From: Sipunculus nudus
Taxonomy: Eukaryota > Annelida > Sipuncula > Golfingiida > Sipunculidae
Length of the DNA: 64,000 nt
NCBI GenBank assembly: GCA_026874595.1
Contig: CM049309.1
Span: 50,812,079-50,876,078, forward strand
Direction of reading: 5' to 3'
The translations under genes were made by a program, and so were the position numbers. Under the pieces are notes generated by a model. That model was not told where the DNA came from, searched no databases, and saw only the letters and a list, made by a program, of their open reading frames with translations. Below, one piece after another: positions 1 through 24,614 of this stretch; the stretch's first letter is position 1; each line of letters begins with the position of its first letter.

Positions 1-79
1 AATTACCTAAAAAAAATTCAGGTGGCGCCACCACTTTTCGGGAACTGACAAAAATAGTCATGGTCAATATTCAAGGCAA
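1..79. other. Window edge, probable 5' part of a dispersed repeat
   Basis: Directly precedes the shared part of the dispersed repeat at 80-357. It has no clear match to the second copy near 24.6 kb, and no coding sequence is seen. Confidence 0.3.
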
Positions 80-357: not shown

Positions 358-1556
358 AAACCATTTGACAAATGACATTATCAACACAAGGTAACAGAAC
401 CCACCAGTCCAGCTGTAGCAATGTAAGAAATGCGTACCTCAGCTAAATTGGCATAGGGAATATGACAATATTATCTAACATAAAATTCACAGAGATAACG
501 AGGTAATCCAAGAATGCATCCCAACCTAATTAGATGAAGAGGCACATGTGTGAGACTTGTAATGCTAATTAGAATTCACTGATTTGAGTATTTTTTTTTT
601 TTAATTTCAGATAGCATGTGCCATAATGAATATTAAAGAAAAAATAAAGATTTTTTTTTTAAATCAGCCACAGCATGATAAAATCCCAATAAACCGGGGA
701 CGCCAGTTAGATCGGAATATTACTTAGAAATGGATCTGAATGAGAAATTAAGATATCGTATTGCATTTTAAATTCTAAAGTGAAAAGGAAAACATCATGA
801 ATATTTGGAAATCGAACAAGCAAGACCAAACCTTATCGGGTTTGGAGACCCATAGGGTACACCAGCGAATTTAAATTGGAAATCATTATGAGGAAGGATT
901 TTCGAGACATCAAATCGCGTTATTAACGGACAGATGGACGGACATACCTCTAATGAGGCCTGGGGACAATTGCTCTTACTATACATGAAACCATAATCAC
1001 TGGCGTGTGTATGTGTGTGTGTGTGAGAGAGAGAGAGAGATAGAGTTATATGCTCAAACCTTCTCTTTTTCAAATAGGAAAACTTAGCACAGACGCTGCG
1101 CCCTGGATCAAGAAGATTAAAGTAGACGCGAAAATGTTACATCATGAAGATCTAGAAACCTGATGCCTGCGAGACTGAAAATTAATTTTGCCTTCATGTT
1201 TGGAAGATGTTTGTTCAATACCGCCTCGTCCATCTGCAATTTAAACCACTTTAACTTGAAATGTTACTTTTAACTTATTATGGTCTCAGGGAACAAAGGA
1301 AAAAAATTAATTTCCTGTGATCAAGAGCATCCTAGTCCTTCTCATTTTAAAGGTAGACATAAAAATGTATACATTGGAAATTTCGGGAAACTTAACGTGA
1401 ACAGTAATGAAAACAGAAATGATTAGTGAACAATAACAAATAGAGAAAATTCTAAAAATGATTTCTAAAAACTGCAATTTCAATTTCAACCGCACATGTC
1501 CGAGACAGATATTAAGATATGATTGGAATGCCTCCCTTCTGACAGTGCACGGTAAA

Positions 1557-1560
<4 letters not shown>
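358..1560. other. Non-coding, AT-rich, mostly featureless
   Basis: Contains A/T homopolymers near 590 and 650, a short TG-then-GA run at 1005-1041, and otherwise nothing recognisable. Open frames here are short and read through the simple repeat. Confidence 0.6.

Positions 1561-1646
<86 letters not shown>
1561..1646. repeat. Compound microsatellite (TC)15-(TA)28
   Basis: Uninterrupted TC dinucleotides at 1561-1590 pass directly into uninterrupted TA dinucleotides at 1591-1646. The apparent SLSLS/YIYIY open frames across it are artefacts of the repeat. Confidence 0.97.
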
Positions 1647-1649
<3 letters not shown>

Positions 1650-2129
1650 TATATCTCAATAAAGCGTCATGCTTTTCTGCGTGATCTTCTCCCCACAAAA
1701 CCTTCCCTGCATGTAAGAGATCGTATAGCAGCTTGTCCAATTGCTGTTACAATGTGAATCAGTAGTTATAATTTTACAAAGTGACACGACACCCACTTGT
1801 GCCCATAAATCCCAACTGATAAGCTGAGAACCTGGGAAATAAAACAAACGGATTTGTATCAAACCAGAAGCCAACACAAGCTGGTACGGAGTCAGTGGTA
1901 TAAAATGTCTGGATTACAGAGACGTCAACTGCGTCTACCTCCACAATACACCTGTCCTTGCTATTGTGATCTTTGAGAATAGTAGCGTTCTTGATATTTA
2001 TTTTATTTTCGTTTTGCCACTCTTTTAGTACAATTAATCTTTATCTTTTTTTCTTAAATATCCCTAGATATTTTGTTGCATCAAGAATTGGCCTCCGTTT
2101 ACAGATATTAAATATTACTAAAACAATTT
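1647..2129. other. Non-coding, nothing recognised
   Basis: Single-copy looking AT-rich sequence with no repeat, RNA or convincing coding signal. Confidence 0.5.
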
Positions 2130-2440
2130 AAGTTGATAGACGTGATGATGACGATACGGATGACTACAAGAATGATGATGATGATGATGATGATGATGGG
2201 TTATGGTGCCATTATCTAATCTCTAAAGGCGATGATACTGAAGATAAGGATGAAGCTTATGAGGAAGATATTTTTGGTGATGAGAATCATGGTGGTGATT
2301 GTTATGATGACGACGATGATGATAATACGGATGCTGTAGATAAGGGTGTTAATTATACAAAAGAAAATGAATATGTTGATGATAAGAATGATTGTGGTTG
2401 TGATTATAATTATGACGACGATGATGATGATGTTAATAAG
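2130..2440. repeat. GAT/GAC-rich degenerate trinucleotide block
   Basis: A pure (GAT)n core at about 2170-2198 is surrounded by 300 bp of GATGATGACGATACGGATG-like sequence with periodic GAT, GAC and GAA triplets. Stops interrupt every frame, so it is an ageing trinucleotide expansion rather than an acidic-repeat exon. Confidence 0.85.
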
Positions 2441-5302
2441 TGAAATAAAACTGAATATGTGACTGATAATGTGAATCAGCCGTAGGAGTCAAATGAGTTC
2501 AAAATTGACATTCTTGGATCAAGAAAAAAAAAGTCCCATAAATCAAGCAAGACCTCATTTACAGACTGGTCTATACCCGTGCCTGATTAATGCTGTTTTA
2601 TAACCTAGGGGCACACACAGCCCAGTTTCCGATACTGCCAGATGTTAGAACCCCACTCTGTTTTCTGTTTTCATTTCTTTGAGGCAATCATGCAGCGCCC
2701 TAACTGAGTGAAAACTAGATTTTTTTTGCAGGCTAGTCGCCAAGAAGTATTTCTGGTGCAGACAGAAGGGCCAGGGTAAAATAATGGGATTTACGTTATA
2801 ATATAAATTCCTGCCTGAGTCACAGCATGGTCCCTTGTTTAACCAGAAAGCTTTGTTTGCTGCTGGTCTGTTATTCTATGTATTTCAAAGGAAGTCGGCC
2901 TGGCAATGCTTGGCTTTAAAAGTGAAGATACATTGTAAGGCGAAGCTTTAATCTCCTCTAGGTAAAAAAGTAAAAAGCCAGGAGCCCGGGATACCATGGC
3001 TTGTCAGGTATGTGCATTTGCCCTATCATTATTTCCGTCAATACGTTCCTTATTATCAAAGCCCTTTTTAATGCAATTAATTTGAAGTCACAATGCATGT
3101 ATTCTTATTATTTCCGACTAATTCCTCAAAATACCCACCAATATAACTGTTAGTCATGTCCTTAAGCGAACCTCTGTGGCCAGATTAAAAATTTTCCTTT
3201 GCAGTCCAGTGGTCCTACAGCTCAATGTCCCTAGTTCTGAGCCACAGTCCCGAAATGCTGCACAAACTCATGACGCAGGTGTTTGGTTTTATTTCATTGA
3301 TATGTTATTTCCAGTTAATGGTTACTGGTTACACCATGTGGTTAAGGTTTCTACTATTGTAAAAATAAAAAAAACCGACCCGTGCTAAAGCAAACTCTCA
3401 CAGAAGGTCACTATATATTTGTATACGCGTACATTTAGGAATTCCAAACATAAGAATTTTATGAATTTGCACTGATGCATGTTATATTAAAGATCAATCT
3501 AAACAATGTTCCCTGTCTTTCAAAACACGGCAGGTAGGGGGGGAGGGGAGGAAAAATTTGTTGAAATTTTGAGAGAAGCCAAGGTAGTTCTTTAAACAAT
3601 ATACTGCGTGTATTCTCAGCAGAATAGTGGTTTATTTTCACCAAATCCATTTAATGCTCGATTTTTACCTTAATATCCGGGCGCTACTAAAATAAAATTT
3701 AATCAAACCTGGTGTTTTGAAAGGGCCTTAATATCTGCCAACGTTGACTGCTAGATATTATGTTCCTTAATATCAGATTGCGCAATTAATCATAGTTTTA
3801 TGACCCCGGTTATTTCACATATAATCGCTTCACTTGTGCTTCGGGTTTTCTTTTAGTGTGCCAACATGATAGCTTTTCCTTGCTTGACATGGGCCACGCC
3901 GATGAGCCTAATATAAAATGACGTACGCTGCGCATGCGCAGTGATTAGCTGTTCGTGCCCATCAAGCTCAAGCAGATCTAGATTTATGGTCCTAGAGCGC
4001 CCGCAATTGCTTCTTGGTATTCAATCATCGGTTCCCCATGGGAAGATGTTTATACACTGAAAGTGTTGAGAACGGTAATCTGTCAATATCAATGGAATCA
4101 TTCGTTGTCTGCAAATTGCAGACATTGCCTGATTGTCTGTCAGTAGAAGGGCCAATAACAACTCTTCTAACTAAACATTGTGCCATGAAAAAGATGTCAT
4201 TGATGAATTAGCAAATGGTACTGTAACAATATGATGGCTTTCTGTAAACGCTTCAATGGATAACAGGAAAACAACATGGAAACATTCCTAAGCAGTTTCA
4301 TATAAAATATCGGCCGCCATTATACATAATATATATATCCCACAACGCCTTGAGCGCGACATATCAGCGGCAATAAACGGAGATGATTTCCCCTCAAAAG
4401 CTGAATGTTTACGTTTCTAAACAAACAAGTAATAAACGTACCCAGGTGTCCCCAGCAGACAGTTTCTTAATAAAACTTTTAATAATTCCGGATTCGTTTT
4501 TAGACAAAGCACGTCCTTTCCATTAAGGCTACAATCAAATATTTCTTAATCGGGTAATTTCGCGGTATGCAACAAGAGTACACGTACAAGGGAAAACGAA
4601 AATAAACTCGCAAGTTCACCTGGACGCATACAGACATTATCTGCGGAGCTTTAAATATCTATGGATCAGTTAACATGATTAATCATATCAAATATCTCCA
4701 ACTGAGATTGTCGACTCCCATTCAGTTTTATTTTCCTGGCTCTACAGGTATCCTCTTTCAAAAAAACACGTCGTATTGCAAGCTCTGTTAAGTTTCTTAT
4801 TTGATATGTTTTATAGGACTTTGCTCTTCATATCAATAGATGGGAATGCCATTAGTATACTTTAGAAATATTGAACTTTCATCGACTCTCACAGCCTGCT
4901 TGAAAGGTAGGATCTCATATAGATATACGCTTAATGTGTGCACATAGCATAGAGTGACGATTGAAATGAAATAGTTCTTTCTTTTCTACAAAAATGATAG
5001 TGCTCTCTGTACACAATAGTACTTTTTACACAACAAAGTGACATTACAGTAGTTTTTCCTTGTATTTAATCGTGTTTGAACTGTTTACGTTTATTCGATT
5101 ATTTTATGTACTATCTATATTACCATGAAAAATACTGTATACAATTAAACCTAAAATATTAGCAGAGTAAATTTAGTCTAACTTTTACACAACTTTGAAA
5201 TGTCAAGGTAATGGCTGTGTAACTGGTATCGTTGCATAAGGTTAAGTTTAACTGCTAATCTCTGTTTTGTGCCCCGTCTTTCTTATATCCCTGACAGAAT
5301 AA

Positions 5303-5304
<2 letters not shown>
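2441..5304. other. Non-coding stretch with one candidate NRF-1 site
   Basis: No recognisable gene, RNA or transposon. It contains the palindrome at 3929-3940 and otherwise ordinary AT-rich sequence. Open frames at 3176-3388, 3459-3650 and 4014-4211 lack any recognisable domain and are likely chance. Confidence 0.5.
3929..3940. promoter_or_regulatory. Perfect NRF-1-type palindrome TGCGCATGCGCA
   Basis: The 12-base palindrome matches the NRF-1/NRF-like consensus (YGCGCAYGCGCR) exactly. Such sites are usually close to promoters and are rare by chance in AT-rich DNA. No transcript start can be assigned from sequence alone. Confidence 0.35.

Positions 5305-5350
<46 letters not shown>
5305..5350. 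repeat. (AT)23 microsatellite
   Basis: Uninterrupted AT dinucleotides; a self-complementary sequence likely to form a hairpin. Confidence 0.97.
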
Positions 5351-5353
<3 letters not shown>

Positions 5354-5563
5354 ATTGTCCAATGTAAATCTTCAAATCGTGGCCCTGGTGTAAGCCTGAA
5401 AAAAAAACACCGGAAATTAAAATGCAGACATACTGTGAATATTTAATACTGAATTACTCATTTTATGCCGTCTTCATAAGCCATCTTCAGTTGAAGTCTG
5501 AGCGTTATCAAATGTGTTTGTTTATTTGCCGAGTGTTTGGGGAGGCGTTCTTGCTACAAATTA

Positions 5564-5564
<1 letters not shown>

Positions 5565-5608
<44 letters not shown>
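5565..5608. repeat. (TA)22 microsatellite
   Basis: Uninterrupted TA dinucleotides 215 bp after the previous array. Confidence 0.97.
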
Positions 5609-5616
<8 letters not shown>

Positions 5617-7309
5617 TATATTTTATGATTTATTTGTTATTAATCATATTGTATTATGTATTTAACAATTTGAAGTATACTTAGGGAAATGGTTCATTCG
5701 TGAATTTTGCTGATTCTCGATTTATTTTCCTCATCTTATAGTCCTTACAATTGTTAAAAGTTAGAGAAATTATGTGTACCCTGATGTTTCTACTTATGAC
5801 GTCACTAAGCGAACGGAGTCACGCCATTAGTGCTGAATAATGCCCCATGCGGGGTGTGGAATTCGGTCATACCATCACGGGGTTTGCTAAGTAAGCTAAT
5901 AAAAACAGGAATGTAGCCAAGAAATATATAGTTGCGAAACTGACAGATGCTGACTTCCAGTTCAGTATGGGTCTGATGGAAGGATGAAGTTATCTACATG
6001 ATTCTGGGGAGGTATCACTCTCACGGCTATCTTTCCTTCCACGCCGGCTATCCTACGATCACATCACCCAAGTCTCAACCACGAGTCACTGCTTGACTTC
6101 AAAAGGTTTCAATGACAGGCTGCTTCTCAAGAGTATTGTTATATGAAGACACTCCGCGAGGAGCTCTGTTCAGCCTCTCAACTTGAACCCTCGCCAGGGT
6201 ATTTAAGGTGCCCCGCAACCGCTCCATCTCATCATTTAACACCACTAGACTATTGCTTAACATCAGATACTGGTCTTCAACCTAAGCATAGCACTGCAAG
6301 CGTTAAACAGCTCTGTGCCGGATCTTCCCGGCTGCCTCAAGAACGTTATGTCTGTGTTCTTCAGACCAGTCAGAGATTACCAGGTAACCGCTGCAGTCTC
6401 CTTCAAATGCTATACCTGCCTACTTCCTACTCTGCCAACTGAAATCAGACATCCACACATACATCAAAGAACACTCATGTTTACGCCACGGTCAATTGTA
6501 TACCGCCACTGATGTATAAAGGTAATAGTTTAGCCCCCTAGACGATTAGATAACCGCGTTCATAGTATACCTTTTTGTTGCCAAAACGATAATACACGGA
6601 ATAACTCCTTAAGGTTTAGATTACAGCTAATTAGGGCGGCTTTCCCGCAATGTTTATTGATTTATGTGAAGATTGTTGATCTGATCCCTCAAGGTATTTA
6701 AGTGGTCTTTGACTGTAGCTCTTCAAAATGTTTAAAGGAGCCTATACCAAAGCCTGGTATGTGTGTATGAAATAAAGTTATTTCTTAGACCTGAGAAGCC
6801 AAAAAAAGCCTATATTTACTGGTGCACATGCTGTCCGTTTTTGTCCATATCCACGTGTTGATAACATGCGGGGGGGGGCATATAATGGCCACCGATCGTA
6901 ATCAAAATATGTCAGACAAGGACAATGGTGGCCAATCAGATGAACCAGCTCAGTTGTTTTTTTTGCAAATGATAAAAAATGGCGTTTCTACACATGCTGT
7001 CACCAGTGGTGACCTCTCCGCACACGCACAACCGACTAGCTCTGGTCACAATTTTCTTTTGTTTGTTAAGATGGGCGTGTGTACAGTGTATACTAAAAGC
7101 TTTCAGATAAATGAACTCATACACCCATCACAATGGGCGTTATATGAGAAATTTCATCAGCGGGAATTACATAGAGCTCATTATTATGTACACAATGTGA
7201 GCCAGAAAACACATACATTCAACAAATAAGGCATGCAGGTGAATGGCTGGCTTCGCACGCATGTTTTAATTAAAGCCCTGCAAGATGTACTGGAGGTGTA
7301 CACGGCAAA
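5609..7309. other. Non-coding, with an unassigned open frame
   Basis: A full CRE palindrome TGACGTCA lies at 5797-5804. An open frame at 6822-7229 (plus strand, possible internal ATG near 6888) has no recognisable domain, signal peptide or membrane segment; I do not call it a gene. A G run is at about 6871. Confidence 0.45.
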
Positions 7310-7710
7310 GTATGGATCATCCTTTGATAATGGCTTCTCCGGGTAGTTAAAGGGCTAATAAGATCAAATTAATGTAGTGGCCTCTGGAGAAAGCCCCTCG
7401 TGGCGGTATAATATTTTAATATACACATATAACAATCCTTTGAAAATGAACCTATCAGGTAATTTGAAGGTTCAAGACTCATTAATGGGTGTTTGTAGTC
7501 CTCTGGCCACGTATTACTTCAATACATGTATTTAATTTTGACAACCCTTTGAAAATGACTCCTAAAGATAATTTAATGACATAAATTCCATTCATGTGTA
7601 GTTATTCGATTATATGTATGTAACATATATATCGCGATATGTAACTACAGTATTTATAGATATGAACCATTTGATAATTACCATGAATAATGAAGGCACT
7701 TGGTTCCCCA
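7310..7710 (+). repeat. Degenerate tandem repeat, period about 115 bp
   Basis: The phrase (C)C(T/A)TTGA(A/T)AAT followed 10-15 bp later by a GGTAATTTGAAGG-like phrase recurs near 7320, 7437, 7549 and 7667, spaced 112-118 bp. Units are strongly diverged, so this is an old array. Confidence 0.55.
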
Positions 7711-7724
7711 CTTCTTAAAAAGGG

Positions 7725-7740
7725 CCCCCCCCCCCCCCCC
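7725..7740. repeat. Poly-C run (16)
   Basis: Uninterrupted homopolymer at the right edge of the degenerate array; a candidate for slippage. Confidence 0.95.
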
Positions 7741-7865
7741 GAAACAACGCCTCTGCCTCTAACATTACACCTTTAAAGGGTGTTTCCATTAGCGCGTATA
7801 TGCGAATATGCGTGAAAACCGCTCATATGATTTTGTAGCTTTGGTGTTTCCATGTGTCTGCCGGC

Positions 7866-7866
<1 letters not shown>

Positions 7867-7913
<47 letters not shown>
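7867..7913. repeat. (TA)23 microsatellite
   Basis: Uninterrupted TA dinucleotides. The phrase ATATGCGTGAAAA(C/T)CGC occurs on both sides (7806 and 7922), which suggests that the flanks themselves are a short duplication split by the array. Confidence 0.95.
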
Positions 7914-7917
<4 letters not shown>

Positions 7918-10293
7918 ACATATATGCGTGAAAATCGCCACAGGAGCGTTTTTCACGCTAGGGTCTTCGTGAACTCAGGGATTAGGGGGAAAATGATCTC
8001 ACTTCACCATATATTTTTGATGGTCTACGAGATGGTGTATTGTTTTATCACTAACCGTGACTAGATGTTGTCAAAATATCCATAACTTAGATTGTAACCA
8101 AGACTATGGTTTTCAAACCCCCAAGGAATCTCTGTAAGTTCATAACGTTAATGGCACATTCAGTTTATGAACCCTAATACTTATATTATACACAGTCCTT
8201 GTTAAATCTTCATGAAAGTTTAACAATATATATATAAATGAGATATTGTGAAAAGACAAACTTTAAATTGAATTGACTTAAAGTGATGGCAGTAATATTT
8301 CCATCAGGCTTTGAGACCAGTAGCGTGGACCTGAGCTTCGTTGACGGCTGACTGACCCAGAATTTATCCTCCGTCTAACATATCACGCCCGCCCAGATGT
8401 ACCGGGAGGGAATGAATCACGTCAGTCCAAATCTTTGGAGAACACTCCCTAGGTATTAATAACATGATAGATTTCGCTTTTGGAAAATGATCCGGGCGAA
8501 AAGAGGCAAGGATATATAAATGTGTTTGACAGGATATAAATGGCTAGGGTGTCCCGATATTAGGCACGGGTACCATTCAACCTGTCAGAAAACCTAACGA
8601 GGCCTGGGTTAACAATCAATACGATGAATTAACTTCCTTTTCACGGCCCCAGTTCTTAATAAGTACGCTGGTAATAACGTAGTCTTAACGAACGGGGTTA
8701 TACAAAGCAACTATCATTAAGCCCAAACACACATTGTTTCCGAATGACACCTGAGAGCTGATTAAGCCAAGCAGTCCTTGACGGAACCGCTAAGGTATCA
8801 GCAACAACGCGCGACCCGGGATATGCTGTAGCAGCCTGAATAAGACATCGGGGCACCGTGGCAACTTGTTGAGACTGGAAGCCGCACCGACAGGCGAGCC
8901 AGCATTTCTATGACACGCAAATGACAATAGCAATAGCGGCCTGTGTATAAGCTGCATTAAGGTGTCACCATGGACGGCACCCGGGGATCGTTCGGTGACA
9001 GACCAGTTGCGTGAAAACCCGCCTTAATATCCACCAATATTCTCCCTGTAAGCCGTCCGCTAGAAGCGCCTGACTTCTAATATGAACTCCTGTCATACCA
9101 CATTAGGACGCAGAGAATTATTCCAAGTTAATTTTGTGCGTGTCGCAACGACAGCCTGGGCACGCGGTGTCGGTTTACAAGTACAAATTAAATTCAACTT
9201 GTTTTTCTTCTTTCATATGTGGCATTAAGAAAGCAATTACGGTGGCTGAAAAAAAATAATCTTCCTTTATTTTTATTGCTTATACTGCAGTTTGGAAGAC
9301 GAAGTGAGGATAAATTTGAAATTATAAATGGCCTCAGCAACCGAAGGATTAGCTGGAATCTTAAATTTCGAGAGGTTTCAAGAAGCGAGTTCTCGCATCC
9401 AAATAAGCTGGTATGTTTCTCGATAATATCAAGGAGGCTGGCTCCAAGCGGAAGAAATGTTCCCATAAACTCTTTGTACGGGGCAAGTGTTTTCTTTAAA
9501 TGAGCCCACCGCCGTCTACCCTCACTTAATTGAAATATTCCACTGATTTAACACAAGCTGAACTATGCCAGAACTTGGGCTCCGCATCTCTAGGGCTGAT
9601 AAAGAGCGGAAAAAAAATAACAGGAGCTGTTAAGCTGGAGAGCCTGTACCGGAACTTCGGACGCCAGAACCCCCGGCTTGGTACAACAGCAGCTGCACGG
9701 CTATGACATGAATTGCTCGTCAGTGGAAAGACGTTAACCAGCCAGCTGACATATGTACATGCGTTCATATGTGTATATAACCCCCGTGAAGCGCTTCGTA
9801 TTAAACACCTCCGACACGTAGTACGTGCAGACATTGCAAAATGTGTTTGCTCGAATGAGTATTTTACCAAATGGCAAGGTAAACTCTGATAATGGCATCG
9901 GGGGCGAACTGGCAGTTCTGCATGCCCCCTTCCCGGCTAATATTGGAGTTAGAACAGCACATCTGTTCTTAAGAATACTTTTTGTTAGCACTCTGGGATG
10001 CTGGGGCTGTTATCAGATAAGATCTTCGTCTGATTTTTATTTCTTGCATTGCCAATAGCATTACGAAAGGAGGTGTGTTGAAAATATTTCAAAAGGTAAC
10101 TGAATATTGTCAAAATCGAGTGGTCTGCTTTGACAGAGCCATGATTACATGAATCACTGGACTGAATGTAAGGACACTGTAACATGAGGAACAAGTTTGA
10201 AGAGGGAAATAATTTTTTTCCTTCTGATGGGTCAATATTTTTCTCGTTTTAATGTCAGTCAAACATACCATTTTTTTCTCTAAAGTATGTAGG

Positions 10294-10297
<4 letters not shown>
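7914..10297. other. Non-coding, nothing recognised
   Basis: Mixed-composition sequence with overlapping open frames on both strands around 9194-9991. None shows a family motif, and frames on opposite strands overlap, as expected for chance. No repeat recognised. Confidence 0.5.
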
Positions 10298-10354
<57 letters not shown>

Positions 10355-10390
10355 CTGTGTGTGTGTGTGTCTGTGTGTGTGTGTATGTGT
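10298..10390. repeat. Compound microsatellite (TA)n-(TG)n
   Basis: About 45 bp of TA followed by imperfect TG dinucleotides with C interruptions, to about 10390. Confidence 0.95.
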
Positions 10391-11507
10391 CTATTTATAT
10401 CCATGTTTATTCATATATACATATATATATAAATGTATATGTATGTAAGATGTACATATATATATACATTACTTCAACATGACACACAAATACACATCGA
10501 TATAATCTTTTTTTTAACCTGAAGGCTGACATTTACGCTAAACTATACATCCAAAGAAAAATGTGAAAGTATAAATTTTCCATTGGAAAAGCACGCGTTT
10601 CTGTGGTCCGCGCCACAGTCTGTGTTTGTGTTTCGGGTTTCAAAGAAGCTTTTGTTGCTGTTTCCAGCTTCAGTGTCGGATAGTGCGGGATTGTCTATGA
10701 AGTGCATACACAATTATGGCCCTGAAGTTACTGTCGGTCGGTCGGTTGAATACTGAAGCCGTTGGGTTTCAATATAAGTATGTTTCTTTGCAAGGAATAT
10801 ACGAAATAGGTACTCCGGAATACGAAGATTTATTTTAATATCCAGCAGCTTTTATTTCAGGAAATGAATGTCGATCAGAGCGTGCAGGTGACTCGGGGTG
10901 TATAAGTCTAACAGAGTTACATACGCTTTTCTAAAAGTATAGTCCGTTTGATATTTAAGAGCTAATATTAGTCAACAAATTCCGTTTAGACCTGGATACA
11001 TTTTCTCCCATATCACACGACCTAAAGCGTCTCTGATCAGTCTTGATATAAAATGCTGAGACATGCTTGACAATGTGACATATATGATTATGTGCAGTGA
11101 CTTAAATAGAGATGATTTGTCAGACAAATTCCTACTGAGCTCTTAGATTTGCTTATCACGTAACTATATTGCCTCATTGCATGACTATGCCTAAACACAC
11201 ATAAAGACATATAACATACATTATAAATTTACCTATATATCCTATTTTTTTGCTCATTACGGCTTTGTTAGATATTGAAACGTGTGGGAGTATGTAATGC
11301 GAGTGCTTGCAACATATATATTGGCACTGATTTAACCTTACTCCTTATTCAGTTGTGCATGTGTGTGTGTGTTTATGAAAGACAGAGAAACCATCAGAAA
11401 GACATAGAGAAACGGATAATGACACGGAGGGGAGAAATGTCTATGGTCTCAATTAGCATGTTCTCAATTTTCACCCATTTCCAAGATAAAGAGAGGAAAA
11501 GGGAAAT

Positions 11508-11524
11508 GGGGGGGGGGGGGGGGG
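11508..11524. repeat. Poly-G run (17)
   Basis: Uninterrupted G homopolymer; able in principle to form a G-quadruplex. Confidence 0.95.
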
Positions 11525-12229
11525 CGTATATATGTAACAGTGTTATACCGGTAAATTGCTTCATCAGCGGACAGCTAATGTCACCGCATTAAGTTTTCAG
11601 TATTTTCTCCCAGCTCTTGGCAGATCATAGAACAGATGAAGTCCCTCTCACGCACGCGACGCATGGACGATACCTAATTATAGCACAAAGGCAGAGGAGA
11701 AGAAGTTAACATTCCACAAAGAAGAACTGAGGCGAAGGGAAGTAATATATTCTCCAGAAGCATCCGACTGCCAAGAAGAAATGGACTAATTTTATTTTCC
11801 TAAAAAAAATTTCTTCCAGAGTGTTAATAATATTGGATAAGTAGTCCAGTGACTGATTTTACTAAACAATTTAGACAAAACTACTTAAACATAAATCCAT
11901 ATATATTCCTAAAATGCGACCTTGTACAGAAAAACGCTTGTATATTTCGTTACCCTCATTACCATTTGTACAGTTAATTTACCTCGGGTCATTTTGTTTG
12001 TGAGTTTTTATTTACTTGCATGCATGAAGAGGGCCATCCAACAACAAGGTATGGCCCAGCTAAATGTCACAGGAAAACACCGAGACATGAGCCATCCAAT
12101 AACACAAAGATTTCTGTCGTTTCTCGATTACTCCACATCCAGATTGGAAGAGGCAACCGAAGAGCAAGGTGGAGGCGCATATATATCGCGTCTACTGGTC
12201 CTTATTCACATCATTTAATGCTAATATGG

Positions 12230-12231
<2 letters not shown>

Positions 12232-12263
<32 letters not shown>
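12232..12263. repeat. (AT)16 microsatellite
   Basis: Uninterrupted AT dinucleotides, shortly before a G14 run at 12305-12318. Confidence 0.95.
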
Positions 12264-12266
<3 letters not shown>

Positions 12267-13308
12267 AAAGGGTTGGGTGGTGTGTAACCAATAAGACTAA
12301 TGAAGGGGGGGGGGGGGGTAGTCCCCCCGGATCCCCTTCTGAGTCTGCTAGTGAGGCAAAAGCCTTCACCGAATCCTTCACATTCCCTGGCCTGTCACTC
12401 TGAGCAAGCCTGTTTTCGACCTTGCTTTGGTGTTTACTTTTTCTAACACCTGCGTTCTGGAGATGTCAAAAGTCGAGCACAGCAGCTATAGTCAGCTAGA
12501 ACAGTTAACCGCAGCTATATTTTACCCTGTGTTTCCAATTAACCATTCATACAAAGGAATGAGAAAGTGGTTTCAAGCACACAACGTGGGTCATGGGACA
12601 CGGGTTTCTTTTACTGGGATACGTGGACAGGCCATAATTAGAAGAAACAGTCATACCAGTAGAACATGGGAAGTGTTTGCTAAGAAAATGTGAGTGGAGC
12701 AATCCAAAGTAGTGCCGACAGAATCCCACAACTTAGAAAATAAGGATACCCACCTAAAATCCCTAGTAGACCCCCCCCCCCCCACACACACACACACCTA
12801 TGATGAACATCACAAAAGCGCTCCACTGATATGTCATAATTTACTTCACTCCCATCGCATATTATGGACTTTGTATTTAAATTTTTGCTCAGTTTTTAGC
12901 ACTTAATTATTCACAAACATTCGATTTACATTCAAAAACCAGGTTTAACAATCATGACGATTGTCACATGCATTATCCTAATTTTTTCTATATATAAAAT
13001 ACATAACTAAAAAATATTGAGGAAAAACTGTTACAGAACTAGAAATTTGCACTCAGAGAGCGCAGATCTCCTCCAAGGCAGCTCATTACCCCATATGGCT
13101 TTGTCACATGAGCATTTTTATCTGAAAGAAAAAATCTGGATTCAAATGAAGGAAACTATGGTTGACAGAATTATCTTGAAATTGAAAAATTATGTATTTT
13201 GTTTCCTAAAAAGAGGACAAAGAGTAATTCACCTTTAACAAAGTGAGGAGAAACTGCCCCCCCCCCTACAAGGCCCATGCCATATGCCATAGAATGAACT
13301 GTACTCAC

Positions 13309-14014
13309 CCCTGGACAAGTTACTCGCTGACCATAAAGCTTCCTCTAGTTGTTGACTGGTGAGATTTTTTTGATCTCTTATAATCACGTAGTCATTATCC
13401 ATTAAGGGGTTGCGGGATTTCAATATTCCAATTAGCGCGTCGATAAGATCAAAATTGAAAGTTATTTCATTTTTATACCTGTCGACGGCAGCAACAATGG
13501 TGGCGTGAGACAAGTGAAAATACTCCATGATCGCCCCTAAGAAACCACTGAAATGCACCAAATGAAAATACACACGCGTCAACTGTTGTACACTCTTATC
13601 CCCGAAATTCCTGTGATAGCCACCAGGACTTAGTACAGGTAACCCCCAAACAGTGTTGAACCTGGAAACACTAGATATCACATATTTACAGCACGGGCCG
13701 AACAGCACCCCGGGTTTCTCCTCATTCACAAACTTGACAACCGCAAGTGGTCCGTATATGTCTGAACACTGTGAGTCCACATACTTTGGTGCTAATGTCA
13801 CATTATTTCCCAGAATATCTCGCAGGTTATATTTATTATTCACAGTTTCCAGAGCGATCTCCGCGGCAGGTTCTACTTGGTCCATTGGCAAGCAACGGTT
13901 CTTTTCTAAATTCGGTTGTTCGGAAGACATTACGATACCCACTCGTACTTCAAAAGCTTTGACCAGCCATACCTGGCTGATCAGCAGGATAAGAAAGCCG
14001 AGCTGTCCAGTCAT
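13309..14014 (-). CDS. First coding exon (A) of a natriuretic-peptide-receptor-like / receptor guanylate cyclase-like protein, N-terminal half of ANF-receptor domain
   Basis: Seen: an ATG at 14014-14012 opens 235 complete codons plus one base, then a consensus donor (AGG G|GTGAGT, intron starting at 13308), so the intron is phase 1. An in-frame GTG 30 bases upstream extends the frame but would put charged residues before the signal peptide, so I prefer the ATG. Residues 1-20 are a hydrophobic signal peptide ending VKA, and the mature chain starts FEVRVG. The core shows the ANF-receptor pattern: Cys41, QCSD (Cys83), PLAVVKFV, FGPCCKYV (Cys108/109), RFNTVWGLPVLSPGG, then LTR. N-glycosylation sequons include NVT, NLT and NLS. 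Known: this fold is the extracellular hormone-binding domain of natriuretic peptide receptors, which dimerise and in most members drive a cytoplasmic guanylate cyclase. Inferred: membrane receptor for a peptide ligand. No downstream exon was recognised, so cyclase versus clearance-type receptor cannot be decided. Open and undamaged throughout. Confidence 0.86.
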
Positions 14015-15100
14015 CTTGGGCAGGTGCTGACGATCAGCTACCACCTTATGCTTTTAAAGCGGCGCGGTCCGCCAAGGGCCAGCTAGTGACTGTGCTGCCG
14101 CCAGAACGCCAGGCCTCAGCCTCATGGAAGGTAAGATTGATCAGCCCGATAGACCCACGCCGGCTCTCTCATAGTAGTGTTGCTAGCTGCTCTCCCTTAC
14201 CTACACTTAATGGGCAATACACCTGGTCACTTCAAAGTAGGCCTCATTTACTGACCCCCAAAGCAAGAATGAAGCAGACCAACTTCTAGTGATGTTGCCA
14301 CTTTCTGGAGCTATAAAGCGATCTCACTGTGCGCATTGCTATTCCGTTTAGCCGCTTATTTCTTGGCAGATGTGAACTTAGCTGTTCCTCTGCCTCCGAT
14401 TCCGGCCTCCTCCGCGCGCCTGCTTAGCACCGACTATGCATTTAAGCCCTCTTTTGCCTGATAATCCACGCTCCGCGCGTGTAACACAGTGTATGTAAGC
14501 TTGCGTGTCACGAGCTGTGCTGCTTAACGCTACCCGGAATACAGCTCTCAGCGCAATACATAGACATCAATCACAAATATCAAGAACATAAAATCGGCAC
14601 AAGGTCCTTTTGGAAATATTTGAGAAAATGCTGAAATTTTCGTAGCTATTGCATTAGTTATTGTTATATGATGCCGGGCCGGGCTGTGAGCGTGGGCTGC
14701 AGCAACACCACTGACCAACTCATCAGCTGCCGTGGCTTGGCTCAGCAGCCTTGGTTTTGTTTACCACATGGGGAGGCCCGCGTGATCCCGTTTGGCTCGT
14801 TTCGTCTATCGCTGTCACCGAGTTTGCACTTGGTGCGTCCAGACTCCGAAGCCGAAGATAGGCTGCACCAGCACGAGGGCAGGACTTTAAGCGTGTAGTG
14901 TCCATCTGGCGGACCAGCCTGCCAGCGTGTGGAACCAAATCATTGATCCCGTATCCCTAATGTCAGACCGACTCGTCCTAATTCTCCGGTTACCATTACT
15001 GCTTGTTCTGACACTGGTGGCTACTCACCCCCTGCCGGCCGCTTAGGCTACTGGTACCAATAACAACATTGATGCGCTGGTTGTTATTATACGTATAGGT
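14015..15100. other. GC-richer segment upstream of exon A, candidate promoter region
   Basis: On the minus strand this lies 5' of exon A. It is visibly richer in G+C and CpG than its surroundings (for example 14380-14480 and 14680-15060). A TTTAAAAG box (minus strand) sits at about 14050-14058, some 40 bp before the ATG; this would leave an extremely short 5' UTR. No convincing reading frame is present. Confidence 0.4.
14895..14912 (-). promoter_or_regulatory. CTCF-like core motif upstream of exon A
   Basis: The minus strand reads TCCGCCAGATGGACAC, close to the bilaterian CTCF core (CCRCCAGRTGG). It is about 890 bp upstream of exon A. Binding is unproven. Confidence 0.25.
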
Positions 15101-16631
15101 GGTCTACCACGAACCCACTACCACACTTGCATCACAAGTATAAGTATCCCCGGGTACAACCACAGTTGTACACTTAACCAGTACATGCATCCCATAGAGA
15201 AACACAGCTGTATACATGGTCGCAACTTAACACATGCCAGATCCGGCCTGAAATCGTACGTTACCATGTTATTTAAGAGCCAGAACACCAGGCGCTGTTA
15301 TCCCAACTGTATATATACATACCGCCTTGTTAGTTTGTGTATCCTTAAATGCACCGCTGGTTCGCTCCAGTGACCAATATTGAGAGTGCCGAAGGCGTGT
15401 ATACACTTCACTGACTGGTGAGTAATTCACACGAGGTACATTGATCCAACTTGGTTACAATATGTTCACTATTAATTATTCCTTATGATTTCAAATTCGG
15501 TGAGAAAAACTTTTATTGAGCAAAGGTTCAGTTGATAAAGTTGTTTCGCCGCACGGTAAAAGACCGCAAAAATGTATTCTCGGCACGAACGTGATTAACG
15601 CGCGAACAATTAAACCGGTGTCGTTTGGTCAAAAGTGCGTAGTAGCACAATAGAGAAAGCAAAATGAGGACCGGATGAATATCCGAGGGTCAAACACGGC
15701 ATGGTACACTTCAGGTCTATTCAAGTGTTTGGTTGTTTGCTTGTGTATCCATACTCAGATTGGTTCCACGGCTAGCGTAGTGCAATTATATTCGGTAGCT
15801 GCTACATAAAACTCGTATATACAAACAGAAAACAATTGACACTTCCATATTAATGCCCACCCACAGGCCTTCAATACCGCAATACTTGCGACCACTTAAT
15901 CACCACACCACCCGTTATGGGAGTTTTTCTATTTAATATCCAGACCCACTTGAGCAAGTAGTTTACATATCATACATAAATACAGCCATGTGAATAAGCA
16001 TAGCCTCACATTTTTGTATTGTAACCTCTTCACCTGGACAGTATGTTTAAGATGTTAAAATACCGGTATTGTACACACATAAAGGACTTAAGTGTCTCTG
16101 TCAACAAGTTCTGAACAAGCTTACTTCGTTGGTAGAGATCAATAAAGCCTGATCACTGTAAATACCTATATAAACAACAGGATTCAGTCACTTGTAGCTG
16201 GCGTCTGACAGCACGGTTATATAGCAGAGTTAAATTGAGAGGCCTCAAGGCTACTCTAGAGTAGAGTTCCTATTTTCTGTTTTATTTATCGTGTGAACAG
16301 AATCATACCACGTGTTGGTAGCGATATTCTAGTATTAGGCAGAATATAAGATTGTGTATGAGTAAAACGTACCGTGGCCATTTAATACAATAAGCTGGCT
16401 AACTATTAGTAAACAAGTTAGTTACCAGCAAGTTAAATAAATTATTATGATTTTCAATATATTAAACGGTTTTGTCATTGCTTATTTTAGTAAATGTGTT
16501 GATATTCTAGAAATAAAAAGTATGTGTCATTGCCCATTTTATACAATAAGATTTTCTATTAAGGGAAAAAGGGTTTGCCTATTCAGCAGGCTACGTTAGC
16601 AGTCTTAAGGGAACACAATGTTGTCCAATCA

Positions 16632-16634
<3 letters not shown>
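15101..16634. other. Non-coding, nothing recognised
   Basis: Moderately AT-rich single-copy looking DNA without a supported feature. Confidence 0.5.

Positions 16635-16681
<47 letters not shown>
16635..16681. repeat. (AT)23 microsatellite
   Basis: Uninterrupted AT dinucleotides between exons A and B. Confidence 0.97.
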
Positions 16682-16684
<3 letters not shown>

Positions 16685-17663
16685 GTAAGTTCTTAAATTG
16701 TTATGCAAATCATTACATCATCCGGAGGTTTCGAGGATAAACTTGGTAGTCCCTGGTACTATGGTTGCAGAAAGAAGAAGAAAATCGCTCAGTGAACACA
16801 TAGAAAAATACATGTACTTAAATGCCTCCCCCAAACTTGGGATGAGAAAACCCCAACCTTGGGGCGTGAAAATAGCCTACACAGAAAATAATATGAGTAG
16901 CGATTCGATAATCCATGGTTGGCTGATAGGTGAGCCCTGTTCGATTGAACAAAGGCGGCCTCTGATGTCATTGAAATGCTCTTTATTGCCATCGGTAGAT
17001 TAAACAAAAATGCCCTCTCTCACAGTGGTAAAGAATACATTAATAAAATACTATTTCGATCCAGATTATAAAAGAATATAAGTGATTGTCCATTGGATGT
17101 TACTTAATCCCATATTTAAATTCACCAAAAACCAATTTATAACGTTCTATGTAAATTGAATTGCCAACATACAAACCATTCAGCGACGGGAAAATCATAA
17201 TATATTCTGACTGAGGTATAATTATTTGTCTCCTATATGATGTGTCAGTGTTAAATTACTGTCATAAAGACTAAGTACAGGTTTCCGTGTGACCAGCGAT
17301 TGAATAAAGACTTCCACTGACAACATTACTGCTTGCTGTATGAGACCCATTATATGTCTCCAGTTAACCTGTGTATACGTACCTGAAAATACCCAAAGCA
17401 GAGTTCAATATCAATATTTACATTTCATATTTTTTATACACTTTGTTTGTTTATATTGTTATTTTACCCATCATCAATGTTCTGTTAACTATGCTTGCAC
17501 CTGTTTGTTTCTTTGCTATTACTCCTGTATCCAGGAAATAAACATATTGGTATGCAAATGCCAATGGTAATCTATAACATGGGTGACACGGCGTGCCTGG
17601 GCATTCATTGAAGCAACTTAGGTTGTAATGCAGGCGCAGTATATCGACAAAACAACCGACATA

Positions 17664-17666
<3 letters not shown>
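16682..17666. other. Non-coding, nothing recognised
   Basis: No exon of a receptor could be recognised on the minus strand here; open frames carry no ANF-receptor, kinase or cyclase motif. Confidence 0.5.

Positions 17667-17726
<60 letters not shown>
17667..17726. repeat. (AT)30 microsatellite
   Basis: One of the longest AT arrays in the window; uninterrupted. Confidence 0.97.
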
Positions 17727-17728
<2 letters not shown>

Positions 17729-18352
17729 ATACAGACGATATACGTCTGGCCAATGTAGCTTATTTATCAACACGGGAGCACTGTGGGCGTCTCCCCTGTC
17801 TGAGTCACCCTGCGTCGTCCATCACGCCGTGGTTTGATCCTTCGTATACGCGAGGATATCACTTTTAATAAATCGCCCCGGGGCACCTAGCCGCTGGCCC
17901 GTATCTGAATGCTGGGCGCCCAGAACTTTCATTTTGAACGCATATATCTTAGCGCTGCTGGCGTCAACTTTCTCTAAATAGAACTAAACTCGCTTGCCTG
18001 ATCTTATCTTGCGATAAGCGAAATGAACTTTTAGCAGATGGATCTACCTTATCATAGAAGAGTGGTCTTTAATATATATATAGCATTTAACATTACACAT
18101 TGCTACTATCTCTGCGATCGTTCCGATATTTTCCAAATACAACCTAATACTTCTATTTTAAAGGTGAGTTCCATGGCCTGTTGTTGGCACTGTATGTCTG
18201 TTAAATTCTGAAGAAGGTTTAATCATAAGTTAAGAATAATATGATTGTGATAAGCCGTAAGCTGTATATATATATATATATATAAATGTTACTGAAAGGG
18301 TTTGGTTGTCATTCCAGAATCAAAGTGCTCGATACATAAAAATAGAGCTGCA

Positions 18353-18399
<47 letters not shown>

Positions 18400-18982
18400 T
18401 ATTATACCTTATATCTTTTTATGTTAAATAAACAATATCGACCCATTCAGATTTATAGATTTTTATTTATTATGTATTTATCGACCAGTGTCGACAGTGA
18501 GGGCGCTGATAATAAGTTTTTCCGTACTTATGCGTTTCACATCCACCTGGATACCCGCGAGCCCTTGATGACATTGATCACGTTTCTCCTGCATAACGAT
18601 CTTGCAGAGTCTACGCCTGTTTGAACTTTAAGATTACACTCACATTTGTGCACTCCGAGCTACGTCTCGGGGCTGTACAGTGGAATGCTCACAAATTATA
18701 CAATATGCATTAAATATATCAGGCGTCACCAGCCAGTGTAATAAACTAAACACTCAGATTTACGGCCACGAAGGTATGACGCACTCCCCGGCGGTACTAC
18801 CTTAAATACACGTATACATTCCCCCCAACGTTTCAAGTATAGTGAGCCTGCTATGTTGTGCCGCTCATACCCGGCGGTTGGCCGCTTCAGAAGGGAGAAG
18901 TGCTATTCTATTTCACAACTGTTTGTGAGTCTCAGGTGTAAGTGACCTTGTAAACTGGGTACCGTGTTTTCCTTCCCACTAG

Positions 18983-18984
<2 letters not shown>
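17727..18984. other. Non-coding with two short AT arrays
   Basis: Holds (TA)10 at 18265-18284 and (AT)14 at 18365-18392. Nothing else is recognised. Confidence 0.55.

Positions 18985-19045
<61 letters not shown>
18985..19045. repeat. (GA)30 microsatellite
   Basis: Uninterrupted GA dinucleotides; the SLSLS open frames on the minus strand derive from it. Confidence 0.97.
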
Positions 19046-19048
<3 letters not shown>

Positions 19049-20028
19049 AATATTTTAAGGTAAAAAATTGGTTCTTTTTCACAATGGTAATACACTGCAG
19101 TCGAACCAGAAATCCTTTCGTGTAACCGCTGCTTTGTATGGCAAGGTTCTCTGGGTAACACCAGTTTGCATACAGAGCAAACAATTCTAATCAGACCGAT
19201 GAAAGCGTGGTTTTGCATTTTGCATCCAGCCTTAATATTCACCATGGGACACCCGCTCTAAAGATATTGATAGATAGCGTATATAGATATCTGGTATTAG
19301 TTCACTTACGATGAAACTCTTCCTCCACTGCCTCGGCATTGACAGATCATTGAGTAAAGATAAACAATCACTTAAGCTAAATATATGCGTGTTAATTTAT
19401 ATCAATGAGTTATACTTCTGAAAATCAGCCTCCATTTAATTCATGATTGAAGAGCTGTAGCAGAAATATATCCGTAATGGAGAGGTTTCGGACCTCAGAA
19501 GCGATTTTTAAGGGCACCTTAATAAGGTGTCCACAAGAGTGTGCCTTCCGTGAACGGTGGGTTACCTGTTTATATGTGTGTGATATTTTAGTTTAAACAG
19601 CAGTGTGACATCATTATCACGTTAAACCGCAGTGCATAACAATAACAGCATCTGCTCCGAATTCACAGGAAAGTCAGCCCATGCAGTTAAAATTCCGACA
19701 CACACGTCGTACATATTTTAAAAGCCCATAAGGAACCCAAAAATAGCTCCTGTTTGGTCTATTCTTAACGGAAATAAAGAGGAAACAAAACGTGTTTCTA
19801 CTACTGCCTTTAGAAGTTGAGCTCCTTGTCAGGTAAGAAGATGCATGTCTTAATAAGGAGCCACCGGTTCGGACTACGTGTAACTCTTGAATGACTATAT
19901 AAGCGCAATATAAAATGGTCAACTTGCATCTGCACGGACTCTTTGACCCATCGTGTAACAAGAGCACCACTAATATGAATTATACGCCGTGACCATTTTA
20001 CGTCTTATGATCTAGCTTTTAATTCTTT

Positions 20029-20030
<2 letters not shown>
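19046..20030. other. Non-coding, nothing recognised
   Basis: An open frame on the minus strand at 19674-19970 has no recognisable domain. Confidence 0.5.

Positions 20031-20088
<58 letters not shown>
20031..20088. repeat. (AT)29 microsatellite
   Basis: Uninterrupted AT dinucleotides. Confidence 0.97.
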
Positions 20089-20091
<3 letters not shown>

Positions 20092-21294
20092 ATGAAACTT
20101 TTCCAGTTTTCATATATGTCCCATCAAACAACTTGTTTTGTTTTTAACGTGGTTTGCCTCGGAATTATTACCATCGTACATATTATCTTAATGTTATTTG
20201 CGCTTGCAGGTGTTAAGAACTTCGAATCTGAAGTTATGATAAACCTTTTCCATTCTCTTGTTTGGTAAGTATACTGTAAGAGAATAATGATGTCTGTAAG
20301 TTGAAAATTAATTAATTGGTCATAGCAAAAAAAAAAAAAATCCCAAAGAGGATATGCTTTCACTTGTTTTGTCTTTTTGTTTATTTGTTGGTTAGGAAAT
20401 TTACTTTGGTGGGGGGGGGGGGGGGTGGACACGGACAAATAAGAACCCATTAAACTTTGTGCAGATCCTGAAAGTGCGGGTCCAGTGATATTGTGAAATG
20501 AATGCTTAATTTTGTTCTAAACTTCAGGTAAGGTAATGTTTACGTATATCATATGAAGGATGTCATGTACTTAGGTGTGAGTTCAGTGACCAGCCTTCCA
20601 CCAGGAAAGTTGATTACTAGCAGTGATTATACACATCCTTTCTGTATCCCACAAAGGAGCACGGATCACAAATGAAAATAACAAGCAGTCTCTCCTACTG
20701 ATTTCTCATTATCTCCTAATACACAGCTCCATACACATCAGATGTACGCCAACGGTACCCTGCTGGCACACTGCCTAGAAGCAACTTCAAAGGTCCGTCC
20801 ATTGATCAAAGTGTGATATTTCATTATAATTTGCAACCTGTCACAGGTAGATTGAGGTATCGTGCCGACTGTTTTGACTTCTGTAAAATATAAGCGATGA
20901 CTAAGGACACACGGTTTTGGGTCAGTCCACACATTCTGTTTTTTTTTCATTCTTTTAATTTCTTTGTATTCATTTTTTATTTTGATTCAATTTACAATAT
21001 ATCTATAAATCACTAAAAGTTATATTGTTTGTTGATTTGACTTTTATTAAGAATTTCATACTGCCTGTCAGGATGTCGTCAATATTTCTAATGGGTTATC
21101 GGTATTCCCACTCAAAAGTAGCACAGGACCGAATGTGGAAACGGTGATAGAGGGATTCTGCATTTAATGAAAAAATCTGTTCTTACAGCCGAAGGCAGGA
21201 GGTTCGACCTTGTGCATGCGCAACAACTCCCAAACACGTAGAAGAAGCGTGTAGGAAGAAAAATTTTAGTTTTCTTTTTAAATGTGTAGCGTGA
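20089..21294. other. Non-coding, homopolymer-rich
   Basis: Contains an A run near 20327 and a G15 run at 20411-20425. A near-NRF-1 palindrome (GTGCATGCGCAA) lies around 21213. No exon recognised. Confidence 0.5.
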
Positions 21295-21400
21295 TATGGC
21301 TAATATTTTTTGCACCACTGGCCGCGGCCGATGCAAGATTATTTCCACTTGCTACAGGAGCAAGGAAACGGCTTTAGAACGAATTTTCGGGAGAAAACAT
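21295..21400 (+). repeat. Short dispersed repeat R2, copy 1
   Basis: Shares with 36040-36160 the ordered phrases GCAAG-TTATTTCCAC, T-GTACA(A)GG, AACGG-TTTAGAACGAA and TTCGGG/TTGGCGG. Diverged copies of one dispersed family of unknown type; this copy lies just beyond the 3' end of exon B, within its intron. Confidence 0.5.
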
Positions 21401-21508
21401 AATATTTTGAATAGAATATACTGTTTCACGCATATGTGACATACCTGTTATGTGAAAAGGACTTTTTAAAGACTGGTAGGGGCAAATAAAAATCTACGGG
21501 GTACTTAC

Positions 21509-22217
21509 CCCTGGTCCGATTCCTCGTCGCCAGCAGTACTTCTTCTATCTGCTGGTTTGTAAGATTCTGCCAGTCAATATAGTGTTCATTGTTATGATCA
21601 AAGGGTAGGTTTTGTTCTTGTGACATATTGTAAAACGCATCAGCAAAATCCGTACAGAAAAACTCCTGCCCATGATACGCATCACTTGAGCAGATAAGCG
21701 ATAAGTGATACCAACGATAATATTCCATCATCGAACGAAGGAATCCGGCAAACTGCATCAAATTAAAATGTGTCCGCGTCAATAGTTGCACGAATTCCAA
21801 CTCGCCAAATTTCCTGTGATAGCCACCCGGACTGAGTATAGGTAACTGCCAAACTTTATTGTACCTGACGACCTTGTAAAGGACGTACTTGCAGCAAGGC
21901 CCAAAGAGAACGCCGGGGTTCTCCTCGTTCACAAATTTGATCACCGCCAGAGGGCCGATAACGTCAGAACACTGTGAGTCAACGTACCTCGGTGACAACG
22001 TAATCTCACGTTCGTACGCGTCCCTTAGGTTGAATTTCTCGTTCACAGTTTTTAGTGCAATCTCCGCTGCTGGTTTAACCTGTGCCATTAGGAAACACCG
22101 ATTCCACCATAGATTAGGCTGATAAGACGATATGATAAAACCAACTGGGATTTCAAAACCGGCGACCAACAAGACGTAACCGATCATGAAATACAGCCTG
22201 GTGACCTTTCCAGCCAT
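21509..22217 (-). CDS. First coding exon (B), tandem paralogue of exon A, natriuretic-peptide-receptor-like N-terminal ligand-binding half
   Basis: Seen: an ATG at 22217-22215 (two codons inside a longer frame that opens with TTG) gives 236 codons plus one base, ending at AGG G|GTAAGT. This is the same exon end and the same phase 1 as exon A, 7.5 kb away on the same strand. Residues 1-20 form a signal peptide ending VAG, followed by FEIPVG. It shares with A the NRC cysteine, PAAEIAL, NLRD, YVDSQCSD, GPLAV, KFVNEE, PGVLFGPCCKYV, LSPGGYHR, the LTR segment and a terminal NLT-QQ-EE block. The stretch from about residue 150 to 210 is much less alike, with B having extra cysteines (ICSSD, FFCTDF). 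Overall identity is roughly one half by eye. The intact frame, retained cysteines and matching donor argue for a functional exon. It could be the start of a separate receptor gene or an alternative first exon of the same gene as A. An acceptor-like TTTCCAACAG lies just 5' of the ATG, so an upstream 5' UTR exon is possible. Confidence 0.86.
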
Positions 22218-24545: not shown

Positions 24546-24614
24546 AGGTTTCAGGACACAGATGAAACCACAGTTGCGAATCTGTTTGTATCAATATAAT
24601 TGGGCAGTCTCGAA

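Follow-up and report, generated by a model that had tools for sequence, protein, structure and literature searches.

Two tandem ectodomain exons in Sipunculus nudus as probable members of an array of eight alternative first exons in a single receptor guanylyl cyclase gene

What is the rest of a receptor whose first half is encoded twice in tandem, with no second half nearby? The question is raised by a 64,000-nucleotide stretch of the Sipunculus nudus genome (assembly GCA_026874595.1, 1.43 Gb; contig CM049309.1, here C4), placed at C4:50812079-50876078 by genome search and referred to below as the window. It contains two related exons, A and B, on the minus strand, each starting with a hydrophobic leader (judged by eye). 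A first-pass annotation proposed that they are alternative first exons sharing one receptor body. The surrounding chromosome agrees with this interpretation, as it shows eight first-half exons, one body and compatible phases. We put the probability at about 0.87 that a single receptor guanylyl cyclase gene of the natriuretic-receptor class carries eight alternative first coding exons in tandem, A and B among them.

Both exons match PF01094 (ANF_receptor) in its first half only, A over profile positions 2-134 of 353 (expect value, E, 1.4e-13) and B over positions 2-156 of 353 (E 1.7e-14). The two exons are 52% identical over their full length (E 1e-91), and the first half of NPR3, used as a tblastn query, finds both in the window (E 4e-15 for A and 1e-11 for B). 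A search of solved structures with A only gave the natriuretic peptide clearance receptor and NPR1 as its best relatives. The frames and the PF01094 matches agree with the first-pass annotation, which had described two intact exons on one strand encoding a leader and the first half of a natriuretic-receptor-type domain; its claim of one donor position also holds, both donors being phase 1 at the homologous codon. The window contains no third first-exon copy, the remaining tblastn matches having E 0.37 or worse. Queries with the NPR3 second half, the cyclase domain and a kinase-homology piece gave best E of 0.34, 0.67 and 0.78, respectively, among the matches listed for the window, and neither tblastn nor hidden Markov model (HMM) scans found a second-half, juxtamembrane, kinase-homology or cyclase exon between B and A (window 14015..21506). 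The first-pass annotation had recognised no second-half, kinase-like or cyclase exon between the two or downstream of A, and these scans agree. A body hidden inside the window is ruled out by the same scans, which place the body exons outside it.

Eight intact first-half PF01094 exons lie in tandem on the minus strand of C4 over 288 kb (51.034 to 50.746 M; Table 1). Six of them, like the receptor body, sit outside the window and were located by genome search, so that the earlier recognition of A and B stands and the total of two does not. Each of the eight has its own ATG and leader, is uninterrupted over 229-245 codons with a coding length of 3n+1, and ends at a GT donor in phase 1 at the homologous codon. 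The motifs Asp-Ser-x-Cys and Gly-Pro-x-Cys-x-Tyr are among the positions that do not vary across the eight and a relative on contig C3, as are one Arg and one Trp. Whole-genome protein searches with two unlike queries (B and E1) returned the same eight exons and the C3 relative, followed by remote matches only; further first exons elsewhere in the genome were rejected on this basis.

Downstream of all eight, on the same strand, we identified a single receptor guanylyl cyclase body (50722848 to 50617179) that is collinear with residues 209-1022 of human NPR1. Its exons were found by tblastn with human NPR3 and NPR1 as queries, run on a contiguous 256 kb and on 5 kb of the cyclase region (the NPR1 query agrees letter for letter with PDB 9bcv over the aligned part listed). 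Both halves of an ANF-receptor-type domain are present, the first as PF01094 matches over the cut-off and the second as tblastn matches in exons 2-6, and the genome search gave one second-half PF01094 match at C4:50.693 M, below all eight first exons. The guanylyl cyclase domain matches PF00211 and is collinear with NPR1 824-1022, with 68-81% identity in five pieces (28-64 residues) and 69% in the last (13 residues). A tblastn of second-half and cyclase domains against the flanking contig, proposed in the first-pass annotation, gives this one collinear body below all eight first exons. The proposed gene would cover ~417 kb of the minus strand (C4:51034500 to 50617179), counted from the ATG of E1 to the most downstream cyclase exon identified.

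Splice signals are readable at exons 2 to 5. The exon 2 acceptor reads ttcatttcag/TT, exon 2 opens with TT GTT GTG, and the codon at the joint is G/TT (Val), or A/TT (Ile) in the case of E4. On paper, all eight first exons join exon 2 in frame and the joined frame is open. The residues that follow, VVLCAS, have the counterparts VVIMCAS in NPR3 and VIYICSS in NPR1. The first exons end at the equivalent of NPR-A residue 208 and the body starts at 209, a junction at which exon 1 of vertebrate NPR genes presumably ends as well. The best reading of the gene plan appears to be a UGT1/protocadherin-like variable-first-exon receptor cyclase.

Table 1. Features of the proposed gene, in window coordinates (position 1 is the first base of the window) or C4 coordinates.
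Feature	Position	Strand	Description
E1	C4:51034500-51033765	minus	First-half exon, last base 51033765
E2	C4:50989412-50988725	minus	First-half exon
E3	C4:50948355-50947659	minus	First-half exon
E4	C4:50880498-50879799	minus	First-half exon
B on chromosome	C4:50834295-50833587	minus	First-half exon
Exon B	window 21509..22217	minus	ATG at 22217; 709 coding bases, 236 codons + 1 base, phase 1; fifth along the array of eight in the direction of transcription
Donor GT of exon B	window 21507..21508	minus	aggg/GTAAGT, phase 1
Stretch between B and A	window 14015..21506	minus	Putative B intron and A upstream region
A on chromosome	C4:50826092-50825387	minus	First-half exon
Exon A	window 13309..14014	minus	ATG at 14014; 706 coding bases, 235 codons + 1 base, phase 1; sixth along the array of eight in the direction of transcription
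Donor GT of exon A	window 13307..13308	minus	aggg/GTGAGT, phase 1
Stretch downstream of A	window 1..13306	minus	Putative intron for A and B
E7	C4:50749330-50748622	minus	First-half exon
E8	C4:50747206-50746498	minus	First-half exon, nearest to exon 2
Exon 2	C4:50722848 (first base after acceptor AG)	minus	Ectodomain, tblastn NPR3/NPR1
Exon 3	near C4:50707482	minus	Ectodomain, tblastn NPR3/NPR1
Exon 4	C4:50692757	minus	Ectodomain, tblastn NPR3/NPR1
Exon 5	near C4:50687858	minus	Ectodomain, tblastn NPR3/NPR1
Exon 6	C4:50671098	minus	Ectodomain, tblastn NPR3/NPR1
Juxtamembrane exon	C4:50659638	minus	Matches NPR1 461-502
Kinase-homology exons	C4:50644400, 50643968, 50642886	minus	tblastn
Late kinase-homology piece	C4:50636549	minus	Genome search
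Linker piece	C4:50626743	minus	Genome search
Cyclase exons	C4:50620605, 50620079, 50619222, 50618455, 50617891, 50617217	minus	tblastn

We predict that each transcript links one first exon to exon 2, either by the use of alternative starts or by alternative splicing downstream of a shared one. Each first exon would be transcribed, perhaps from its own promoter, and mutually exclusive inclusion is expected because each has its own ATG and leader. Eight receptors would result, with differing ectodomain halves, one body and, presumably, the same cyclic GMP (cGMP) output, and the variants may bind different ligands.

The position of the junction bears on what such a choice would alter. An extract of PMC9699598 places the contacts of natriuretic-type peptides on human NPR-A at residues 59-192, mostly from docking and simulation. 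These reported contacts all precede the 208/209 junction, and the variable half evidently contains the reported contact surface. As the first exon carries the NPR-A contact half, exon choice would change the ligand-touching half and leave the rest unchanged. In an alignment to NPR1 (uncertain near 154-162), every one of the eight variants keeps NPR-A Tyr88 and Arg95, none has Tyr154 or Tyr156, and Asp62 is confined to A, B, E7 and E8; this list (Asp62 to Tyr156) includes some positions given as general background. Asp62, Tyr154 and Tyr156 are equally absent from human NPR3 as aligned there, although it is a true NPR, and the retention of contact residues is therefore uninformative on NPR membership; the C4 gene is accordingly kept apart from NPRs in the strict sense, the receptors of ANP/BNP/CNP-type peptides.

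The first exons are diverged and intact. Pairs among the eight other than A/B and E7/E8 are 20-37% identical, and the first exons are 20-28% identical to the first half of human NPR3. Synonymous sites are saturated between A and B at a nonsynonymous distance (dN) of 0.37, with no stop. E7 and E8, 1.4 kb apart, are 94% identical, with a ratio of nonsynonymous to synonymous distance (dN/dS) of 0.27 at dS 0.108 (all ratios are from simple Nei-Gojobori counts). The duplicated unit aligns over 1.76 kb at 92.4% identity, and the two exons (C4:50749330-50746498) are evidently a recent tandem duplication; 13 of the 15 codons with amino-acid changes fall in the second half of the exon. An assembly error that doubled a single exon is unlikely for this pair, since the copies differ (92.4%, dS 0.108), though one of them could conceivably be a retained haplotype copy. 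The first-exon tree has three groups (E1-E4, A-B, and E7-E8 with the C3 relative), with firm support for the latter two; it leaves the deep order and the placement of NPR1 and NPR3 unresolved.

The C3 relative (C3:64069470-64051795, minus strand) consists of one E7/E8-type first exon, 89% identical to E8, followed by exons 2-5 (78-94% identical to those of the C4 locus) and exon 6 (83%). The dN/dS is 0.28 for E8 against the C3 exon and 0.43 for E7. Genome searches (best 150 of 154, 115 of 197 and 105 of 202 candidates) identified no kinase-homology or cyclase exon near it. The C3 relative has the appearance of a duplicated downstream end of the C4 locus, severed after the ectodomain; it may be dead, or may encode a decoy receptor in soluble or truncated form.

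The C3 copy also bears on the alternative that survives best, which we nevertheless consider improbable: one working gene with dead or silent leftovers, in which only E8 or a few first exons are used and the others are relics of partial duplication. Partial duplication of the locus evidently happens, as this copy shows; the usage of each first exon is read here from sequence alone, and its promoters are unrecognisable. However, eight frames open over 229-245 codons, with one-phase GT donors and at 20-52% identity (94% for E7/E8), are unexpected without constraint, and the young E7/E8 pair is still at a dN/dS of 0.27. Open frames at such divergence would speak against relics.

If every first exon instead headed a complete receptor gene of its own, with long introns and its own body, further bodies should lie within the array. 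Long introns do occur in receptor cyclase genes of contig C2, where one ectodomain and one cyclase set extend over ~70-180 kb, but a single body was found at the C4 locus. A scan of the 256 kb fetched at the locus (HMM and phmmer; 9927 six-frame segments of at least 18 residues) recovered the five first exons contained there and the part of the body present, and no body exon among those first exons, covering ~150 kb of the array; the matches ranking next had E 1.2 for the first half, 5.1 for the second half and 0.12 for phmmer with NPR1 pieces. These 256 kb are contiguous, free of ambiguous bases (N) and overlap the window exactly, which rules out an assembly gap in this stretch. Across the whole genome, exons 2-5 (E up to 10) gave two sets, at about C4:50.7 M and on C3, and otherwise remote matches, with nothing between first exons; exon 6 through cyclase gave one set at the locus (best 105 of 202 candidates). 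The next cyclase below the locus on C4 is 0.6 Mb away. The 1.4 kb spacing of E7 and E8 leaves no room for a private receptor body for E7 ahead of E8. Two tandem genes, the plain alternative for A and B, are rejected because genome searches, tblastn and HMM scans found one body alone, and we regard a full set of tandem genes as highly improbable.

Secreted half-domains or short proteins, made from the upstream first exons by intronic polyadenylation or small private exons, seem scarcely credible to us: reading past the donors unspliced meets a stop after about 3-27 codons (from frame ends and donor positions), which makes such products possible, and small private exons could escape a homology search, but all donors match the shared acceptor in phase and codon position, and half of a two-lobed domain would, from what is generally known of the fold, be expected to fold poorly.

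As a blunt control, we counted N-terminal ectodomain pieces within 500 kb upstream, on the same strand, of cyclase places in the genome. The C4 locus has eight and the other 35 places have 0-4, the maximum of four coming from two adjacent C2 genes with two pieces each. The control took 52 of 79 PF01094 places and 36 of 127 cyclase places, and left out mainly full-length single-frame receptor matches, bacterial-type contigs and extra pieces of cyclase clusters already counted. On several of the small contigs C61-C75, C89 and C90 the cyclase domain lies in unbroken frames of about 493, 804 and 834 codons, which occur in several near-identical copies; these contigs look as if they derive from bacterial strains (symbiont or contaminant) in the assembly.

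Several observations weigh against a single gene with eight first exons, or lessen the force of the evidence for it. We infer the eight-to-one splicing from genomic sequence alone. The HMMs of the 256 kb scan were built with these exons, which makes their recovery a self-match by construction; the NPR1, NPR3 and phmmer finds are independent. About 138 kb between E4 and E1 (50896001-51034000), except for pieces of 2-4 kb around E1-E3, were covered by the genome-wide search alone, which was lossy at first look (two of its scans scored the best 115 of 197 and 105 of 202 candidates). Zero ectodomain pieces were counted at 25 of the 36 control places, because these are other kinds of cyclase or because ectodomain exons were missed, and several places lie in one gene. 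The transmembrane helix itself is not aligned in the tblastn with NPR1, as the juxtamembrane match begins at NPR1 461. The predicted structure of A is poor (mean predicted local distance difference test, pLDDT, 64.6); Foldseek with this low-confidence model ranks NPR ectodomains 1-10, a weak result (best E 2e-5, TM-score ~0.4). Variability over residues 55-195 is higher in contact columns than in the rest (4.74 versus 3.55 distinct residues among seven variants, p 0.0001), an excess that mostly reflects how variable lobe 2 is overall (p 0.051 when restricted to 150-195, 0.29 when restricted to 55-130). This test used contacts from the PMC9699598 extract and seven of the nine first exons, E8 and the C3 exon being left out as near copies of E7, and faster evolution of contacts than of their surroundings is only suggested.

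The promoter arrangement is open to two readings. By analogy, one promoter per first exon is plausible. A search for upstream 7-10-mers common to at least four of seven variants found none, and a shared promoter element was rejected on this result; TATA-like strings occur near the ATG in some variants only. Pyrimidine runs ending at an AG precede some ATGs (e.g., those of E3 and E1; judged by eye), and would allow a common non-coding exon upstream instead.

An extension of the eight-exon gene concerns receptor pairing. An extract of PMC10952227 describes GC-A as functioning as a dimer with one hormone site between two monomers. Cells might choose among eight ligand faces in the manner of a protocadherin-like identity code, and co-expression of two or more first exons could then give up to 36 dimer types with composite sites. 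We think this rather unlikely; if true, it would make one gene a combinatorial peptide or chemosensory detector.

The remainder of the window contains repeat-like sequences. An open frame at 58464-58730 (plus strand) resembles, by eye, a piece of a reverse transcriptase of the long interspersed nuclear element (LINE) type. Frames at 103-330 and 24502-24783 (both plus strand) have the peptide LSRYWRFCI and flanking words in common, which suggests copies of one interspersed repeat. There are 18 dinucleotide runs of at least 12 units each, mostly (AT)n with some (GA)n/(TC)n.

Of the known systems, the vertebrate UGT1 cluster is closest in plan to the C4 locus. As described in an extract of PMC1885805, its variable exon encodes the signal peptide and the ligand-recognition half, and its constant exons the remainder. 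UGT1 products are detoxifying enzymes, whereas the C4 gene would encode a signalling receptor, in which the variable exon provides half of one two-lobed domain and the constant part the other half, the kinase-homology region and the cyclase. In the clustered protocadherins the ectodomain is encoded by the variable exon. The alpha and gamma clusters share with the C4 locus that the product is a cell-surface protein (extract of PMC1885805). They differ from it in that the C4 variable exon stops in the middle of the ligand-binding domain, and we found no shared upstream element at C4. Drosophila Gr39a is an insect Gr-family chemoreceptor gene, unrelated in fold and output to a receptor cyclase. 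It is the closest chemoreceptor gene that we met: an extract of PMC2204066 reports three small conserved exons to which alternative large exons (four or five, versus eight at C4) are spliced, in a gene whose exons have been gained, lost and have diverged.

NPR1/NPR2 and NPR3 resemble the proposed gene in domain order, in the collinear body and in the half-domain junction at NPR-A 208/209; the C4 first halves differ from NPR3, at 20-28% identity. We know of only one first coding exon in vertebrate NPR genes. Among the matches listed for the open-licence literature (most subscription journals lie outside this scope), there was no comparable receptor cyclase with variable first exons. Variable first or variable large exons have precedents in the genes of adhesion molecules, of detoxifying enzymes and of insect taste receptors. 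If our interpretation is correct, a hormone-type receptor gene with a single output diversifies its ligand-binding half through exon duplication, cut just past the contact half. The eight interchangeable ligand-binding halves on one signalling body would form a natural set in which specificity, lobe coupling and promoter choice become testable, and gene-finders may split such a locus into several partial genes. The gene plan as such is familiar; what appears to be new is its proposed role in exchanging one half of a hormone-receptor domain on a cyclase body.

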